From positions 1-43,841 of IMG/VR virus record IMGVR_UViG_3300005253_000384: a stretch of 43,841 bases of DNA. One strand, 5' to 3'. The stretch comes from a virus. Position 1 is the stretch's first letter. Each line of letters begins with the position of its first letter. A model generated the notes under the pieces. That model had not been told where the DNA came from. It made no database searches and worked only from the letters and a program-made list of their open reading frames with translations. A program made the position numbers and the translations under genes. Below, in pieces: positions 1,732 through 16,636 of the stretch.

Positions 1732-2258
1732 TGGCGCCAAACATCCGGCTGGTCGGTGTCTCGGAACTAACCGCGAAATTGACCATGATCGAGGTGGTGG
1801 TGTCCAAGAGGGCGGCTAGGGCGGGCGTCAACGCGGGGCTCAATCCCATCATGCGAGCCATCAAGGCGGGTGTGAACAGTACGTCGGCGTCGGCCGAGGC
1901 CAAGGCTGCTGCTAGGCAAACTGTGGGTAAAAGGTTAGCGACCAGCAAGGGCGTCGTCACCGCAGCCAAGGTTGGATTCGGTGTAGGTACAAAGGGCCAG
2001 CGGCGGAGGTCAGAAGAGAAGGCGAAAGCAAGATCATCTAGTGGCGGCGTAGGTATCGGCGGGAGAAATATTCACTGGTTGGTCATTGGCGTTGCCTCAC
2101 GAACACAGCGGAAAACAGATAAGTGGACAGGAACTTTTAGTGGCTTGTTTTTGGGCGTGATTGCGAGTGCGACTCACGTGGCCGCCAACGCTGTAGTTCA
2201 GGCGGCGCGCCAAAAGTTTTGGCAAGTTATCAAACGGGAAGCTCTACGAAAGGGATAG
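1731..2258 (+). CDS. HK97 gp10-like neck/tail protein
   Basis: A 175-residue, highly basic protein. ATG at 1731 (overlapping the previous TGA by one base) is preferred over the TTG at 1728. The N-terminus MAPNIRLVGVSELTAKLTMI, followed by a long amphipathic helix and a Lys/Arg-rich loop, fits the HK97 gp10-like group that occupies this position between the head closure and tail tube genes. The middle (KGQRRRSEEKAKARSSSGG) is probably disordered. The C-terminal helix VVQAARQKFWQVIKREALRKG is amphipathic. Confidence 0.6.
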   Translation: MAPNIRLVGVSELTAKLTMIEVVVSKRAARAGVNAGLNPIMRAIKAGVNSTSASAEAKAAARQTVGKRLATSKGVVTAAKVGFGVGTKGQRRRSEEKAKARSSSGGVGIGGRNIHWLVIGVASRTQRKTDKWTGTFSGLFLGVIASATHVAANAVVQAARQKFWQVIKREALRKG

Positions 2259-2260
2259 TC

Positions 2261-2674
2261 ATGGCAAAAATCAAGGGCAAAGGTACCGTGCTCAAACAAG
2301 ACGTCGCCGGCCTGGTTGCCGTCGCCCAGATCATCAGCCTGAACATGGACGGCATCGAGTCGGAAACGTACGAGGCGGACACGCTGGACAACACGTCCGC
2401 GGGGATCCTCTACAGCCAAACAGGCCGAAGCGAGGGCGGCTCAACTTCAGGTGAACTGTTCTGGGATCCGGTTCTCGCCGGGCACCAGGCGATGACCGAC
2501 ATCATCATCACGCCGGTTGAGACGGCATGGGAGCTTAGCTTCGCGGACGCCGCAACCACCCTGTGGAGCATCCCTGGCGCTGGCCTCGGCCTGGGTTTGT
2601 CGTTCGTCTTGAACGATGGAGTCAAGGCGTCATTTGAGATTAAGCATTCCGGCCTTCCCGGATTTACCACGTAA
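2261..2674 (+). CDS. Major tail protein (tail tube)
   Basis: A 137-residue protein. I chose ATG 2261 over the earlier in-frame ATG at 2219, because 2261 follows the previous stop and has an AAAGGG site upstream. The sequence (MAKIKGKGTVLKQDVAG, then DGIESETYEADTLDNTSAG and GELFWDPVLAGHQAMTDII) has the strand-rich pattern of siphovirus tube subunits, with the Asp-rich loop before a Gly/Ser turn. It lies directly before the tail assembly chaperones and tape measure gene, the standard position of the tube gene. It would polymerise around the tape measure protein. Confidence 0.75.
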   Translation: MAKIKGKGTVLKQDVAGLVAVAQIISLNMDGIESETYEADTLDNTSAGILYSQTGRSEGGSTSGELFWDPVLAGHQAMTDIIITPVETAWELSFADAATTLWSIPGAGLGLGLSFVLNDGVKASFEIKHSGLPGFTT

Positions 2675-2697
2675 ACCTTTCATGACCGGAGGAAGCC

Positions 2698-3051
2698 ATG
2701 AAGTGCAAATTGGTCACGGAAATATCGGCGGGCGTCCACAACCCGGAGCCATACGGCACGCCCCTTTTGCCTGGGCATATCATCGATCTGCCAAAGGCGT
2801 TTCGCTTGGTACAAATGGGCGTCGCCGAGCCGGCCGACGATGAATGCCGGATACGGGCCAACAGGACTGAAGAGCAAATGGCCGAGGCGCAGCGACGATA
2901 CCCAGTCATTGCCAAGGGCATTTGTCCCAAGGATCGCGAGGACTTTTTCGCCGGCAAAATGGATGGCTACAATGACGATGGGTCGTCGATCCCCGGACCC
3001 AACGCAGGGCAAGACGAGGACGAGGAGGAAAATGAAGATGAAGATGAATGA
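2698..3051 (+). CDS. Hypothetical protein with acidic C-terminus, tail module
   Basis: A 117-residue protein of unknown function with a strong GGAGG site 6 nt before ATG. The N-terminus (MKCKLVTEISAGVHNPEPYG, then a proline-rich turn and a helix) resembles small accessory proteins in tail modules. The last 14 residues are almost all Asp and Glu. The DNA for this acidic tail also carries the ribosome site and start codons of the next gene, which overlaps it by 14 nt in another frame. Confidence 0.6.
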   Translation: MKCKLVTEISAGVHNPEPYGTPLLPGHIIDLPKAFRLVQMGVAEPADDECRIRANRTEEQMAEAQRRYPVIAKGICPKDREDFFAGKMDGYNDDGSSIPGPNAGQDEDEEENEDEDE

Positions 3052-3478
3052 TGCACCCTTAGCGGACGTGTCGGCGATGTTTCCAGGCAAGGTCAGGCGA
3101 CGGTACCTCGATATAGAACTGCCGGTTGCCAAGATCACGGTGCGAATCCGGTCGTTGCTTGCTGGCGAGGTCTCGCGGTTCCACGCTTCGCTGCTCTCGA
3201 AACGGAATCGCAAAATCATCCAATCGCGGCTGGAGGACTCGACGGCCCGGCTGATTGTGTTGTGCGCCGTTGACGCAAACGGGACGGTTTTGTTGAACGA
3301 AAGTCATGTGCTACAGATTATTGAGGAATGGGACAACGCCGATGTGGCCTGTCTTTCCGACGCATGCACAAAGCACTGCGGAATGGATCCCGACGAGTTT
3401 GAGGATCTGGCAAAAAACTCGGGGGAGATCTCGTTCGCCTCCGAGAGATCCGCATCGCCCGACAGCATCGCCGGATAG
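3038..3478 (+). CDS. Tail assembly chaperone, short form (gpG-like)
   Basis: A 146-residue protein. ATG occurs in frame at 3032, 3038 and 3044. I chose 3038 because AGGAGG at 3023-3028 is then 9 nt upstream. Strands plus helices (RRRYLDIELPVAKITVRIRS, later VLCAVDANGTVLLNESHVLQII) and the position between tube and tape measure fit a G-type chaperone. A slip site near its end makes a longer product (separate entry). It would keep the tape measure soluble and help the tube polymerise. The chaperone itself is not part of the finished particle. Confidence 0.7.
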   Translation: MKMNDAPLADVSAMFPGKVRRRYLDIELPVAKITVRIRSLLAGEVSRFHASLLSKRNRKIIQSRLEDSTARLIVLCAVDANGTVLLNESHVLQIIEEWDNADVACLSDACTKHCGMDPDEFEDLAKNSGEISFASERSASPDSIAG

Positions 3479-3744
3479 ATGTTGACGGGATGCTCGATTC
3501 GCTCACGGTTGAGCAATGGAATGAGCAACTGGCGTTCGATTCAATCGAGGGCGACTCGCTGGAACGCATCGCCGCGATCCTCAAGCTGGGTTTCGCTGCG
3601 ATCTGCCAGGTGTGGGGCGCCGACCTGACCGTTGACCATTTTGAGCCGCTTGAGAGCAGGAAGTCAGTGGAGTCGGACGGCTACACGCCGCCCAATGCCC
3701 AAGTGGCAGTATTGCGTACCCAAATTGATTCCACCGGGCGATAG
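3038..3744 (+). CDS. Tail assembly chaperone, -1 frameshift product (gpGT-like)
   Basis: The ribosome would read frame 1 to codon AAC at 3416-3418, slip back one base on A AAA AAC, and continue as LGGDLVRLREIRIARQ through MLDSLTVEQWNEQLAFDSIEGD to 3744, giving about 235 residues. The -1 frame has no stop between the slip site and 3744. The extension is helix-rich with a Trp/Gln-containing segment, as expected of a T domain that binds the tape measure. The internal ATG at 3490 could start a separate 84-residue protein, but it lacks a good ribosome site. Frameshifting here is known for most long-tailed phages; in this genome it is inferred. Confidence 0.72.
3412..3450 (+). promoter_or_regulatory. 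Programmed -1 ribosomal frameshift site
   Basis: The heptamer A AAA AAC at 3412-3418 is in the correct phase for the upstream chaperone frame (gcA AAA AAC). An imperfect hairpin can form just downstream: GATCTCG around 3427-3433 pairs with CGAG..ATC at 3442-3450 with a two-base bulge. Its spacing of about 8 nt from the heptamer suits stimulation. Confidence 0.7.
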
Positions 3745-3747
3745 ACC

Positions 3748-6075
3748 ATGGCAGTGATGGGTGATCTTGTCGTACGCTACGGCGCCACAACCGCGGGCTT
3801 TGATCGCGGCACGCGAAGGGTTCGCGGCGGGCTTGCGTTGATCACTCGGAGCGCCATGCGGATGATTAGCACACTGGCTCCGTTTGCCGGTGGATTCATG
3901 TTCATCCAAATGGCCCGATCGGCGGAAAAGTTCAACCAGAAGATGCGGCAGTCATTGGCGATCATGGGCGACGTCACGAGGTCGATGCAAAAGGAGATGT
4001 CGGCCGCCGCGTTCCAGGCTGCGAAAGATACACGGTTTTCCGCTGCTCAAGCGGCCGAGTCGTTTTTCTTCCTTGCCTCTGCGGGTCTCACCGCTGAACA
4101 ATCGCTAGCCGCTCTGCCCGCTGTCGCCGCGTTCGCGCAAGCCGGTAACTTCGACATGGCTCGGGCTACGGATCTTTTGACGGATGCACAATCCGCCCTT
4201 GGCCTAACAGTAGACGATTCAGCGCAGAACATGCGAAACATGATTCGTGTCTCCGACGTGTTAGTGAAAGCTAACACGCTAGCTAACGCATCGGTTGAGC
4301 AATTTTCCGAATCATTGACAAACAAGGCGGCGGCCGCACTTCGCATCGTGGGAAAGGAGATTGAGGAGGGCGCGGCCGTTCTTGCCGCATTCGCCGACCA
4401 GGGACGCAAGGGCTCGGACGCGGGTACGGCGTTGAATATCGTCATGCGCGATTTGCAAACCAAGGCGCTGCTGAACAAGAAGGCGTTCGAGGCGGCTGGG
4501 ATTGCGGTGTTTGACGCCGCGGGTGAGATGAACAATATCGCCGACATTATCGGCGATCTGGAGCGCAGACTCGACGGTATGTCGGACGCGCAGAAAAAGG
4601 CGACGTTGATGCAGCTCGGCTTTGCCGACAAGTCGGTGATTTTCATTCAGACGTTGATTGGGACGTCGGATAAGATCCGAGAATACGAGAAAGAGTTACG
4701 CAAGGCGGGCGGTACCACACAAGATGTGGCGGACAAGCAATTGACGCCCATGCAGAAAGCAATGGCGAAGATGGGCGCAGCGGCGACGAGGCTAGGGACA
4801 ATATTCAACGAGACCGTGGTTCCGGCCGTAACCGCTTTTTTGGGTGTTATCACGCGAATACTAGATGTTCTGGGCCCGCTCACGCCGACGATTTTGTTCA
4901 CAGCCGGAGCGGTGTTGGTCTATGCGGCGGCCGTCAAGGCAGCGGCCGTGGCGCAAGCGTTCTTGACGGCTCTAGCTGGGCCAAAGGGTTGGGTTGTCAT
5001 TGCCGGCGCCATCGGTGTCGCTAGCTTGGCGGTTGGGGTCATGGCGGCGGAGTTGAACACAGTCGCGCGCGAAGCCAGCGCGGCAAAACAAGAGATGGAG
5101 GGATTGGCGAAGGCGGCCGAAACCGAAGGAGCCCGCGCCCCAGGGGGTGGGCGCGGGCTCCTGTTAATCCCGCTGGCCGATGAATCCGGAAAAAGCTTCT
5201 TGAACGCCGGCGGCGCGGTTGGCTTTTTTGCCGCGAGGGTGCAGGCTGCACAGAATCGCATAACGAATCTCAACGCCAGTATAGCGAATGTACGGGCGGA
5301 AGGGGAACGCAGCGCCAGGCTAGCGAATGCACGGCCGGAAGGGGAACGCGTCGACATACTTGCCAATATGCGCCTCGGCATACGCGTGCAGTTAATGAAG
5401 CGACTCAATGCGGCAGCTCGGATAGAAGAATCCGCAGGTGCGGCGCTCCTCCAAATGATAAGGCGGCTAACCGACACGTTTGGTGATTATGCCACGGCGA
5501 TCCAATTTGTCGAACGCGGTTTAGCCTCTCTGGTAACGCCAGCGGAGGCTTTCCGCAGAGAACAGGAACAGATAGCCTTAGCCGTAAAATTGGGGCTTGG
5601 CGGACTGACAGAGGGGCAAGGGTTAGAGTTGTTGGCGCAAGCCGCCGAGCGACTCGATGCGGCGATCGGTGGCCCGGTGGCCATGATAGCCAAACTGAAA
5701 GACGAGCTGCGGTTGATGAATAAAGAGGTCACGGAGAGCGAATTGCTTTTAGAAAAATTGGCGAAGGCCGGCGCCAGTGAATCTCAGATCAACACTATAC
5801 GAGATTTGCAGCGCGAGATCGCCGGTCCCCCTAAGGACCTCGGCGGTATACGTGTGCCGGTATTCGAGGCGCCCGCACAAGCCCAGGGGCCGCAGTTCGC
5901 CGGCGCCGTGGAGAAGAGTAGCACGGGCGCGTTTAGCGCGGTGATCGCCACCTTGCGTGCGGACAAGGATCGACACCAGGCGCAGATCGCGAACAACACG
6001 GCGCGAGGGGCAGACGCAGGCGAAGAGGCCAACCGGAACCAGGAGGACAAAGTTCGCGTGGCATGGGAGCCCTAG
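3748..6075 (+). CDS. Tail tape measure protein (TP901 / PhageMin_Tail type)
   Basis: A 775-residue protein that sets tail length and is ejected ahead of the DNA. The N-terminal 300 residues show the core pattern of the family, including AQAAESFFFLASAGLTAEQS and GKEIEEGAAVLAAFADQG. Residues about 357-434 form a hydrophobic block with membrane-spanning potential, as usual. Long Ala-rich helices follow. Two oddities: a perfect 13-bp GC-rich inverted repeat inside the gene (5128-5161), coding a Gly/Arg/Pro segment, and a 39-nt near-duplication at 5282-5350. Residue count suggests a tail of roughly 110-120 nm by the usual 0.15 nm per residue rule. Confidence 0.9.
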   Translation: MAVMGDLVVRYGATTAGFDRGTRRVRGGLALITRSAMRMISTLAPFAGGFMFIQMARSAEKFNQKMRQSLAIMGDVTRSMQKEMSAAAFQAAKDTRFSAAQAAESFFFLASAGLTAEQSLAALPAVAAFAQAGNFDMARATDLLTDAQSALGLTVDDSAQNMRNMIRVSDVLVKANTLANASVEQFSESLTNKAAAALRIVGKEIEEGAAVLAAFADQGRKGSDAGTALNIVMRDLQTKALLNKKAFEAAGIAVFDAAGEMNNIADIIGDLERRLDGMSDAQKKATLMQLGFADKSVIFIQTLIGTSDKIREYEKELRKAGGTTQDVADKQLTPMQKAMAKMGAAATRLGTIFNETVVPAVTAFLGVITRILDVLGPLTPTILFTAGAVLVYAAAVKAAAVAQAFLTALAGPKGWVVIAGAIGVASLAVGVMAAELNTVAREASAAKQEMEGLAKAAETEGARAPGGGRGLLLIPLADESGKSFLNAGGAVGFFAARVQAAQNRITNLNASIANVRAEGERSARLANARPEGERVDILANMRLGIRVQLMKRLNAAARIEESAGAALLQMIRRLTDTFGDYATAIQFVERGLASLVTPAEAFRREQEQIALAVKLGLGGLTEGQGLELLAQAAERLDAAIGGPVAMIAKLKDELRLMNKEVTESELLLEKLAKAGASESQINTIRDLQREIAGPPKDLGGIRVPVFEAPAQAQGPQFAGAVEKSSTGAFSAVIATLRADKDRHQAQIANNTARGADAGEEANRNQEDKVRVAWEP
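5128..5161. repeat. Perfect 13-bp inverted repeat inside the tape measure gene
   Basis: GGAGCCCGCGCCC at 5128-5140 and its exact complement at 5149-5161 flank an 8-nt loop. No T run follows, so it is not a standard terminator. Confidence 0.85.
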
Positions 6076-6945: not shown

Positions 6946-8031
6946 ATGCCAATGAGAACCGACACACTGAGAGTCACGGGCGCCTTCAATCATGCGAATG
7001 ACTTTCAGCCCGACATCGACCCGGGGCAGCTTGCGCAGCGGTCGACGCAGGAATACGGGATCGACCTGGCAAACCCGGTGGCCCACCAACAAACGGCCAA
7101 CGCGGCGGGCATTGGCATTACCGGCACCGCCGACAATTTCGTGACATCCGTCGAAAAAGTCGGGGCAATCATCAAGACGACAATCCTGATTGACGTGGAC
7201 GGCCTCAACAGCGGCGGGACACCCGATGATGTCATAGGCGCGGACGGCGCGGGCGTGGCTCATCTAGGGCAGATCACCGCCGCCGTGAACGGGACGATCT
7301 TCGCCGGTAAAGTCACTTGTCTCCAGACTCCCACCGTAGGGGAGCCCGACATCGATCTGTGGTACACGGATGACGCTACGGGCGTAGAGGACACGCTCAT
7401 TTCAGCCATGGCCAACCAGGTTCAAAGTACCAATCACGGAGATTGGACCGCCGGACAAGTAGCAGTCCTGACCGCGTTTCCGCCTGCCAATAAGTACCTG
7501 TATCTTGGCGGAGGGGCCGCGACGGACGCGACCTACACGGCCGGCATTCTGCTCATTGAACTCTGGGGGACCGATACGACAGGCGATCTGGCTATCATCC
7601 GCGGTGCGCTAGGAACAAACGCCCCGTCGCTCCAGACTGAGGATCTGCAAAAAGTCGGTGTCACCTGGCGATATCGACGCTATGAGGTGATCCTGCCGCC
7701 GGAGTACGTCATCGGCCAGACGGTAAAGATTCGGCTAATAGGCGGGATGATTACCACGGTTGCGGACACGACGGCTTTCGTGGATGTCGAGTGCTACGAA
7801 AACGAGGAAGATAATTCGGTTTCCGCCGACCTATGCACGACGTTGGAAACGACCATCAACGCGCTGATTGCCTCGCCCACGACCGTGGATTTTACAATCA
7901 CCTCGTCCACGTTGTCCCCCGGGACCGTGCTGGACGTTCGGGTAGGCGTAGAGGTGACGGACGCCGCTACGGCAGCCGAGGTGATTGGGTGCATCACCAA
8001 GGTCAGCCTGCTCTGCGACACGAAGGGTTAG
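6946..8031 (+). CDS. Virion structural protein, probable tail tip or fibre
   Basis: A 361-residue protein with the low Lys, high Thr/Gly/Asp composition of particle proteins. Two parts are visible: residues about 1-210 with many short strands (WYTDDATGVEDTLISAM, YLYLGGGAATDATYTAG), and a C-terminal part with repeated Thr-rich strands (STVVDFT-like, LSPGTVLDVRVGVEVTD). GGAG precedes the ATG. Probably assembled at the tail tip with the gene before it. Exact role unknown. Confidence 0.55.
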   Translation: MPMRTDTLRVTGAFNHANDFQPDIDPGQLAQRSTQEYGIDLANPVAHQQTANAAGIGITGTADNFVTSVEKVGAIIKTTILIDVDGLNSGGTPDDVIGADGAGVAHLGQITAAVNGTIFAGKVTCLQTPTVGEPDIDLWYTDDATGVEDTLISAMANQVQSTNHGDWTAGQVAVLTAFPPANKYLYLGGGAATDATYTAGILLIELWGTDTTGDLAIIRGALGTNAPSLQTEDLQKVGVTWRYRRYEVILPPEYVIGQTVKIRLIGGMITTVADTTAFVDVECYENEEDNSVSADLCTTLETTINALIASPTTVDFTITSSTLSPGTVLDVRVGVEVTDAATAAEVIGCITKVSLLCDTKG

Positions 8032-15955: not shown

Positions 15956-16161
15956 CCATCTACCCCCTGGTCGCCGCGGCGTGCTTGTTGCTCGCCGTGT
16001 TGCTCGGCGGCGCCGGGCTGGTGTACTGGATCGGTCAGGTGATCGATGATCGGCACAGGCGGCGACCATATGAGTCAATCAAGCCGGGACCACTCAACGA
16101 AATGCGAGGCAAACGGTGTACCTCGGGAAGTGCCGCGGCGCGAGGTTTGAAGACCGAATAA
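15952..16161 (+). CDS. Small single-span membrane protein
   Basis: A 69-residue protein whose ATG overlaps the previous stop. Residues about 5-27 form one hydrophobic span (YPLVAAACLLLAVLLGGAGL); the rest is basic and hydrophilic. No family recognised. The layout would also suit a small lysis or exclusion protein. Confidence 0.5.
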   Translation: MTIYPLVAAACLLLAVLLGGAGLVYWIGQVIDDRHRRRPYESIKPGPLNEMRGKRCTSGSAAARGLKTE

Positions 16162-16212
16162 GTCGCTGCCTAATGAGCCTTTCCTGCCGAAGTGAGCGTG
16201 AGGGCCCATCGG

Positions 16213-16218
16213 TATAAT
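16213..16218 (+). promoter_or_regulatory. Consensus -10 box upstream of the structured RNA
   Basis: A perfect TATAAT at 16213-16218 would start transcription near 16225, just before the structured region. No good -35 box lies at 16-18 nt, so confidence is limited. Confidence 0.4.
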
Positions 16219-16226
16219 CTTTCGCC

Positions 16227-16391
16227 GTGACAGCCGGGAGAGACCGGCATTTATGTGACGAAGGAACGGCAAGCGTCCGTTTAGCGGTGGACGTGTCGCG
16301 AGGGCTCAAACCCTCGGACAGCCAAAGCCGAGACCACGAAACACCCGGCTCTGCTCGTGGTGGCAGGTGCGACTCCTGCCCGTCACCTTTT
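16227..16391 (+). ncRNA. Structured RNA candidate with tRNA-like 3' end
   Basis: No protein frame fits this stretch. Base pairing is dense: GCCGG/CCGGC (16233-16248), CGTCC/GGACG (16274-16293), a 10-bp hairpin with loop CTCAAA (16294-16320), ACCACGA/TCGTGGT (16333-16361) and GGCAGG/CCTGCC (16362-16380) with the 7-nt loop TGCGACT. That last arm looks like a tRNA T arm (TGCGACT versus TTCGANT). The bases right after it, CGTCAC (16381-16386), pair with GTGACG at 16255-16260, like an acceptor stem. TTTT follows. The body does not fold as an ordinary tRNA. It could be a free RNA or the leader of the gene at 16415. Confidence 0.55.
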
Positions 16392-16414: not shown

Positions 16415-16636
16415 ATGTTGACAAGAAATGAAGTGCGCAAGTTGGCTTGGCTCCAAATCTCCGGAGTAGTTGAAGCAATGGCCTTAGATTATGCATTTGG
16501 CGACGAACTAACTGATCTAGCTTTTGATGATGGATGCAGTTGGGTTACCGGCGTGCTGGAAGACGTACGATCGCAAGCGGCTAGACGCCTGACCCCAAAA
16601 CAGTTGAGAGGACGTGCAAATGATTGTCCTTCGTGA
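16415..16636 (+). CDS. Small hypothetical protein downstream of the structured RNA
   Basis: A 73-residue protein with AAAGGAGG 4 nt before ATG 16415. Mostly helical: MLTRNEVRKLAWLQISGVVE, then an acidic middle, then a Lys/Arg-rich end. No family recognised. The structured RNA ends 24 nt before its start codon, so the RNA may regulate it. Confidence 0.6.
   Translation: MLTRNEVRKLAWLQISGVVEAMALDYAFGDELTDLAFDDGCSWVTGVLEDVRSQAARRLTPKQLRGRANDCPS

Follow-up and report, generated by a model that had tools for sequence, protein, structure and literature searches.

Organisation of the locus

The stretch of DNA analysed here, referred to as the window, is a 43,841-base IMG/VR virus record. It codes for tail components, among them the tape measure protein, as well as for a Prim-Pol primase and for two adenine methyltransferases. 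A structured RNA region fills the gap 5' of a gene of 73 residues, for which no PHROGs family was found. The first-pass annotation had described positions 16213-16391 as one undescribed structured RNA. The stems that it placed there are present, and the interval folds with -71.9 kcal/mol (z -2.5; 2 of 200 shuffles equal it). Its most conserved part, the first hairpin at 16229-16248, belongs to a separate widespread element. The interval as a whole is read as the junction of two noncoding RNA modules within one phage RNA locus. The claim of structure stood, but that of a single RNA gives way to two modules, the annotated 5' boundary cutting through the first. The following features were assigned:

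16113-16118, plus strand: candidate 5' strand of stem P1 (ACGGUG), pairing with 16223-16228 in the minimum-energy fold of 16105-16252
16223-16228, plus strand: 3' strand of P1 (CGCCGU), ending in the conserved GU
16229-16232, plus strand: linker GACA, fixed across the family
16233-16248, plus strand: hairpin P2 (GCCGG-GAGAGA-CCGGC, loop at 16238-16243), identified by exact recurrence of a 20-mer and by covariation
16249-16254, plus strand: spacer of 6 nt from P2 to the tRNA-like structure, with an RNase P cut predicted at its 3' end
16255-16260, plus strand: acceptor-like 5' strand (GUGACG), pairing with 16381-16386 in the fold of 16251-16391
16274-16293, plus strand: D-arm-like hairpin (CGUCC-GUUUAGCGGU-GGACG), read off the sequence and uncertain
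16294-16320, plus strand: anticodon-type arm (UGUC, bulged G, CGAGGG, loop CUCAAA at 16305-16310, CCCUCG, GACA), present in the minimum-energy and centroid folds
16326-16361, plus strand: variable region with a possible H-type pseudoknot, from comparison with shuffles and tiles
16362-16380, plus strand: T-arm-like hairpin (GGCAGG-UGCGACU-CCUGCC), from the fold and the acceptor/T stack analysis
16381-16386, plus strand: acceptor-like 3' strand (CGUCAC), followed by C and UUUU; CCA is absent
16415-16636, plus strand: gene of 73 residues with its own AAGGAGG, a neighbour of the RNA lying outside it

In agreement with the earlier description of the region as noncoding, the best phage relative of a 120-codon minus-strand frame running through it was no better than E 0.7. 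A promoter at the TATAAT box is not supported: the box has no supporting -35, and a search found no promoter-like site. ARAGORN reported neither a tRNA nor a tmRNA in the window, and Rfam 15 returned nothing at its curated cut-offs. At weak thresholds the window gave tRNA-Sec (RF01852) with 23.4 bits against a cut-off of 47, plus two weaker matches. In the window and its relatives only ordinary tRNAs reached the Rfam 15 cut-off, and the P1-P2 element was left without a family even at weak thresholds. The RNA can still be called undescribed with respect to Rfam.

A two-hairpin element with covarying stems

A methyltransferase search led to a record (L001) in which part of the sequence of the first hairpin recurs upstream of the same gene. 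A search for relatives via the Prim-Pol protein gave no pattern match. The exact 20-mer GACAGYCGGGAGAGACCGGC is present in at least 119 IMG/VR stretches, a recurrence far beyond chance. The element follows the consensus R-[AC NNN]...[NNN GU]-GACA-[G NNN G]-GAGAGA-[C NNN C]-A, which is absent from Rfam 15, and an open-licence literature search on the sequence and on phage RNA motifs yielded no description of it.

In the window, GACA and the 5-bp hairpin with loop GAGAGA at 16229-16248 form the 3' end of the element, and the covariance model scores this copy, which has GACA and the 5-bp P2 with its GARAGA loop, at 38 bits (E 8e-9). According to the folding model, P1 may reach back to 16113, and with this partner the closing A-U and C-G pairs agree with the family rule AC...GU. 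The fold of 16105-16252 is no better than shuffles (z -0.2), and the covariance model pairs another, imperfect P1 5' strand at 16209-16213.

Base pairing of P2 was assessed by an IMG/VR scan with an open stem (pattern GTGACAGNNNNGAGAGANNNNCA), which returned 79 further copies; 72 of these pair at all four open positions, using 32 different stems. For P1, the rule AC NNN...NNN GU holds in 130 of 230 copies compared to 62 +- 6 after permutation of the 3' strands across the copies, and the two bases before GACA are G in 94% and then T in 90% of 262 copies. A covariance model alignment of 119 copies has 98.9% of cells paired (99.7% for P2 alone) and 147 double-changed cells against 28 in the shuffled control, but as it was fitted to the structure and its seed rows were picked for having P1, the permutation count for P1 and the open-stem scan for P2 are the fair tests. 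The first-pass annotation had looked to compensatory changes in its stems; these are found in P2, whereas the tRNA-like structure of the window has no close homologue among the relatives collected.

GACA, GARAGA, the A-U and C-G pairs closing P1 and the G-C pairs at both ends of P2 are fixed while the other pairs vary freely, the invariance of linker and loop being partly imposed since GACA and the loop GAGAGA/GAAAGA were built into the search patterns. Many alphaproteobacterial loci carry a GAGTAGG motif at about -53 upstream of the element (16 against 0 on the opposite strand), which may be a further part of the element RNA.

Spread and genomic setting of the element

The element is carried by phages and prophages. 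Isolated phages with the element come from Enterobacteriaceae, Acinetobacter, Stenotrophomonas, Pseudomonas, Rhodobacter, Phaeobacter and Cyanobacteria, and include mEp390 (E. coli), P7641 (Klebsiella) and Alexa (Acinetobacter). A scan of species genomes from bacteria and archaea, 84,980 in all, for one version of the element matched 63 stretches, spanning Proteobacteria, Chloroflexota, Bacillota, Cyanobacteria, Planctomycetes, Acidobacteria, Verrucomicrobia and others; whole-genome runs of the covariance model confirmed 13 of the matches in bacterial and archaeal genomes. Among genomes of the Anaerolinea and Roseovarius classes the element occurs in 1 of 150 and 2 of 241, respectively, the starting genome counted in each case, and such rarity in random genomes is expected for a mobile element. 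Phage records mostly hold one locus, with 1-5 tandem copies. No covariance model match was found in vB_EcoM-ep3. A 1.9 kb "noncoding gap" in Pseudomonas phage PAKlein3 was rejected as a candidate, being apparently unannotated coding DNA and devoid of a model match. In the same record (L320), positions 1960-3829 before the terminase small subunit are unannotated and apparently coding.

One 36-nt spacer in a CRISPR array of Anaerolinea thermophila (L179, 37-4400) has exactly the sequence of the element in a different Anaerolineae genome (L170), and judging from this sequence identity the element is a natural CRISPR target. The same array holds a second, element-like spacer.

tRNAs, tRNA-like units, further element copies or unrelated genes follow the element in relatives, and a start codon lies within 45 nt behind it in 36 of 91 copies compared to 25 of 91 on the opposite strand. 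With these variable followers and start codon counts, the earlier proposal of a leader for the 73-residue gene in particular is not supported. The gene after the element is co-oriented with it in most annotated phages seen. This would suit a cis-acting RNA that modifies RNA polymerase before structured or late regions, that is, processive antitermination resembling that of HK022 put, as would the two hairpins with their short linker, the dispensability of a dedicated protein and the broad host range; put is likewise a two-hairpin RNA and acts on the conserved RNA polymerase (PMC9378689). We nevertheless consider this explanation improbable. The element model has no significant match in HK022 (best E 0.19), co-orientation is about equally frequent for upstream and downstream genes (95 and 98 of 133), and the genes downstream of the element in Alexa as well as all flanking genes in RcCWillis run the opposite way. 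The opposed next gene in these two phages suits a role of the RNA in trans.

tRNA and tRNA-like units directly behind the element in many phages

Besides its base pairing and its spread, the element is characterised by its placement before tRNAs or tRNA-like units. In the zone 0-30 nt behind the element, the start sites of units composed of an acceptor stem and a T arm have a density of 1.94 per kb, compared to 0.02-0.04 per kb at distances of 600 nt or more, which amounts to an enrichment of about 50-100-fold over elsewhere. A second peak of 0.31 per kb lies 200-400 nt upstream of the element. Behind the element, tRNAs recognised by ARAGORN mostly start 4-7 nt after P2, and the acceptor strand of the tRNA-like structure in the window begins 6 nt after P2. 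The occurrence of such units right behind the element in many phages implies that the tRNA-like reading of the window is no accident. In a strict non-redundant set obtained with a harsh filter, a tRNA or tRNA-like unit lies within 40 nt of 8 of 91 copies; since most copies have none, tagging by tRNAs cannot be the sole mechanism of 3' end formation.

The near-fixed, close spacing to tRNA 5' ends could alternatively reflect a ribozyme that, by cleaving itself, trims phage tRNAs at their 5' ends, as a counterpart of the theta ribozymes found 3' of tRNAs, and tRNA-associated ribozymes of phages do exist, mostly beside tRNA-Met, Sup and Leu (PMC10879173). However, the element has no similarity to Rfam ribozymes, its flanks do not form a third helix joining P1 and P2 (mean best helix 5.48 compared to 5.39 +- 0.10 after permutation), and most copies have no adjacent tRNA, which leaves this possibility with very little weight.

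Many of the units behind the element are tRNA-Met and others are unable to decode. The anticodon CAT is found in 12 of the 21 ARAGORN tRNAs directly behind the element compared to 19 of 91 others, and CAT-type arms are approximately 10-fold enriched in the first 150 nt behind it. Non-decoding or minimal units are exemplified by L065 (loop TCGCT), L081, L118 (loop GAAA) and L167 (3-nt loop). In Anaerolineae (L170, L180, L193, L207 and L208), a minihelix of acceptor and T arm, the two separated by only 12-13 nt, lies about 205 nt upstream of the element. Behind the element, the tRNA-like units of this group go unreported by the Rfam tRNA model; their T-loop, TGCAAGT or TGCAAAT, resembles TGCGACT of the window.

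Several units of unusual build were observed. L118 and L186 carry related tRNA-like units directly behind the element, with an arm YYGGC...GTCRR and the loops GAAA, GCAACCC and ACATT; with such different anticodon-arm loops they are unable to decode in the usual way. On the minus strand of L156 (about 622-722 on that strand), a Met-type tRNA with an insertion of about 30 nt in the anticodon loop is situated between the element and the next gene. In L245, a long hairpin GGG CTCATA CCC, with a Met-anticodon-like loop outside any tRNA, starts at 7531 right behind the element.

The prevalence of CAT anticodons and CAT-type arms would be in line with a tRNA-like unit that serves as a decoy or nuclease-resistant imitation of a host tRNA, often the initiator or Met tRNA, and absorbs or escapes the tRNA-cutting defences of the host, with P1-P2 as a stabilising leader. 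Altered anticodon loops in phage tRNAs have been proposed to evade VapC, PrrC and colicins (PMC10264068), and on inspection GGG CUCAAA CCC of the window equals the initiator-tRNA-type Met loop CUCAUAA minus one base. However, the upstream units of Anaerolineae have no anticodon arm, so that an anticodon decoy is not general, and the loops vary widely in length with no common sequence on inspection. We therefore regard this explanation as unlikely, if still worth serious consideration.

The tRNA-like structure in the window

The second module (16255-16386, 132 nt) folds as a tRNA-like structure. Taken alone, 16251-16391 adopts a closed multi-arm fold with z -2.48, equalled by 1 of 200 shuffles. 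The two acceptor-like strands pair next to a 6-bp T-type stem, which bears out the tRNA-like T arm and acceptor closure noted before. The resulting acceptor/T-arm stack comprises 12 bp as a contiguous 6 + 6 (7 + 5 in a normal tRNA) and is capped by a 7-nt T-type loop, UGCGACU, that departs from UUCRANY at position 55 only. For an acceptor/T stack of 12 bp with such a loop to start within 40 nt of the conserved hairpin, the probability by chance is about 1e-4 per element.

The anticodon-type loop CTCAAA has 6 nt, as previously described, and a 7-nt decoding loop is absent. Size and ARAGORN results likewise uphold the earlier view of a structure that exceeds the size of a tRNA and does not resemble tmRNA, and its suggestion of a tRNA mimic was largely right, given the tRNA and tRNA-like units behind the element in many phages, except that the region comprises two modules. 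The downstream module is a tRNA-like structure unable to decode. Its inner arms, drawn from folding energy and from analogy with tRNAs, are uncertain: the minimum-energy fold favours a pairing that competes with the D-arm-like hairpin. The putative pseudoknot joins AGCCG (16326-16330) to CGGCU (16346-16350) and ACCACGA (16333-16339) to UCGUGGU (16355-16361), and equal pseudoknot potential was found in 2 of 1000 shuffles and 5 of 4380 window tiles. The T-arm-like and anticodon-type arms resemble those of initiator tRNA (GGG CUCAxAA CCC; T stem GCAGG/CCUGC), and this sequence likeness suggests descent of the structure from tRNA-Met.

As no homologue of the window structure was found and its inner arms derive from energy, the tRNA-like resemblance might be attributed to chance folding of a GC-rich gap beside a real element. 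The z of -2.48, the low chance expectation for the acceptor/T stack at this position and the family-wide enrichment of such units render this quite unlikely. A bacterial Y RNA of the YrlA type, with a Ro-binding stem and the tRNA-like domain known in Y RNAs (PMC7790460), was also considered, and CUUUCG does pair with CGAAGG in one fold of the stretch. That stem competes with the acceptor pairing, CGAAGG forms no part of the element in relatives, and the virus record, which may be incomplete, contains neither a Ro/TROVE gene nor an Rfam match of that kind, so that we find a Y RNA barely credible.

A proposed mode of RNA processing and action

An acceptor/T-arm stack is nearly all that RNase P requires, and an RNA that precedes a tRNA can have its 3' end defined by that tRNA. 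We propose that the element and the tRNA-like structure are transcribed together and that RNase P would recognise the acceptor/T-arm stack and cut 6 nt after P2, where the stack has its 5' end. The upstream RNA would thereby receive a defined 3' end, with the tRNA or tRNA-like unit as a processing tag. Relatives may use ordinary tRNAs, frequently tRNA-Met, or other tRNA-like units for the same purpose, and the other end of the RNA could be set by an upstream tRNA or tRNA-like unit. The freed RNA would probably act in trans, binding a conserved host factor through the unpaired GACA and GARAGA. These segments look like a recognition site, since they are fixed and framed by fixed pairs while other pairs vary, and the occurrence of the element in many phyla suggests that the host partner is a conserved one. 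As an explanation of the whole, a two-module locus with an RNase P-tagged tRNA-like structure and a trans-acting upstream RNA is the one that we provisionally favour, without rating it quite as high as even. A tendency of phages to group their noncoding RNA genes could be an alternative reason for the association with tRNAs.

In its general form, our proposal is of a previously unrecognised phage RNA family in many phyla, whose transcript is punctuated for RNase P by tRNAs and non-decoding tRNA-like units and which targets a conserved host factor; we advance this with reserve, as a plausible proposition that falls short of probable. A compact signature that phages keep across many phyla, that shows strong compensatory changes and that lacks an Rfam entry, is a pointer to an unknown interaction between phage and bacterium at the RNA level. 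The adjoining units bear on the question of why phages carry odd tRNAs, some of which are here suggested to be processing marks. With the element in the isolates mEp390, P7641 and Alexa, direct testing is possible.

Comparison with known systems

The HDV-like theta ribozymes of phages (PMC10879173) are, like the element, small structured RNAs in noncoding phage DNA beside tRNAs, with tRNA-Met prominent. They lie 3' of the tRNA and form an HDV double pseudoknot, whereas the element lies 5' of the tRNA and consists of two plain hairpins; none of the HDV-type Rfam families matches the window or its relatives. HK022 put RNA (PMC9378689) shares with the element two adjacent hairpins in phage RNA and the lack of a partner gene, but there is no match in sequence or model, and placement and orientation of the element do not demand a cis role. 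Y RNA/YrlA resembles the RNA of the window as a noncoding RNA with a tRNA-like domain and differs in its conserved core, apart from the missing Ro gene and Rfam match.

Among tRNA-related families, tRNA-Sec (RF01852) is the best sub-threshold Rfam match and likewise has a long variable region, but it aligns to the window only with a 32-nt insertion and with the D arm left out, and the loop of the window structure has 6 nt. The canonical tRNA shares the 12-bp acceptor/T stack and the 7-nt T loop, but has about 70-95 nt and a 7-nt anticodon loop, compared to 132 nt and a 6-nt loop here. A tmRNA, which combines a tRNA-like domain with a tag frame, is found by neither ARAGORN nor Rfam. tRNA tags for RNase P occur outside tRNA genes in the mascRNA of MALAT1 and in mitochondrial tRNA punctuation. 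As in our proposal, a tRNA-like fold there defines the 3' end of another RNA; these cases are eukaryotic or organellar, whereas that of the window would, by analogy, be a phage counterpart.
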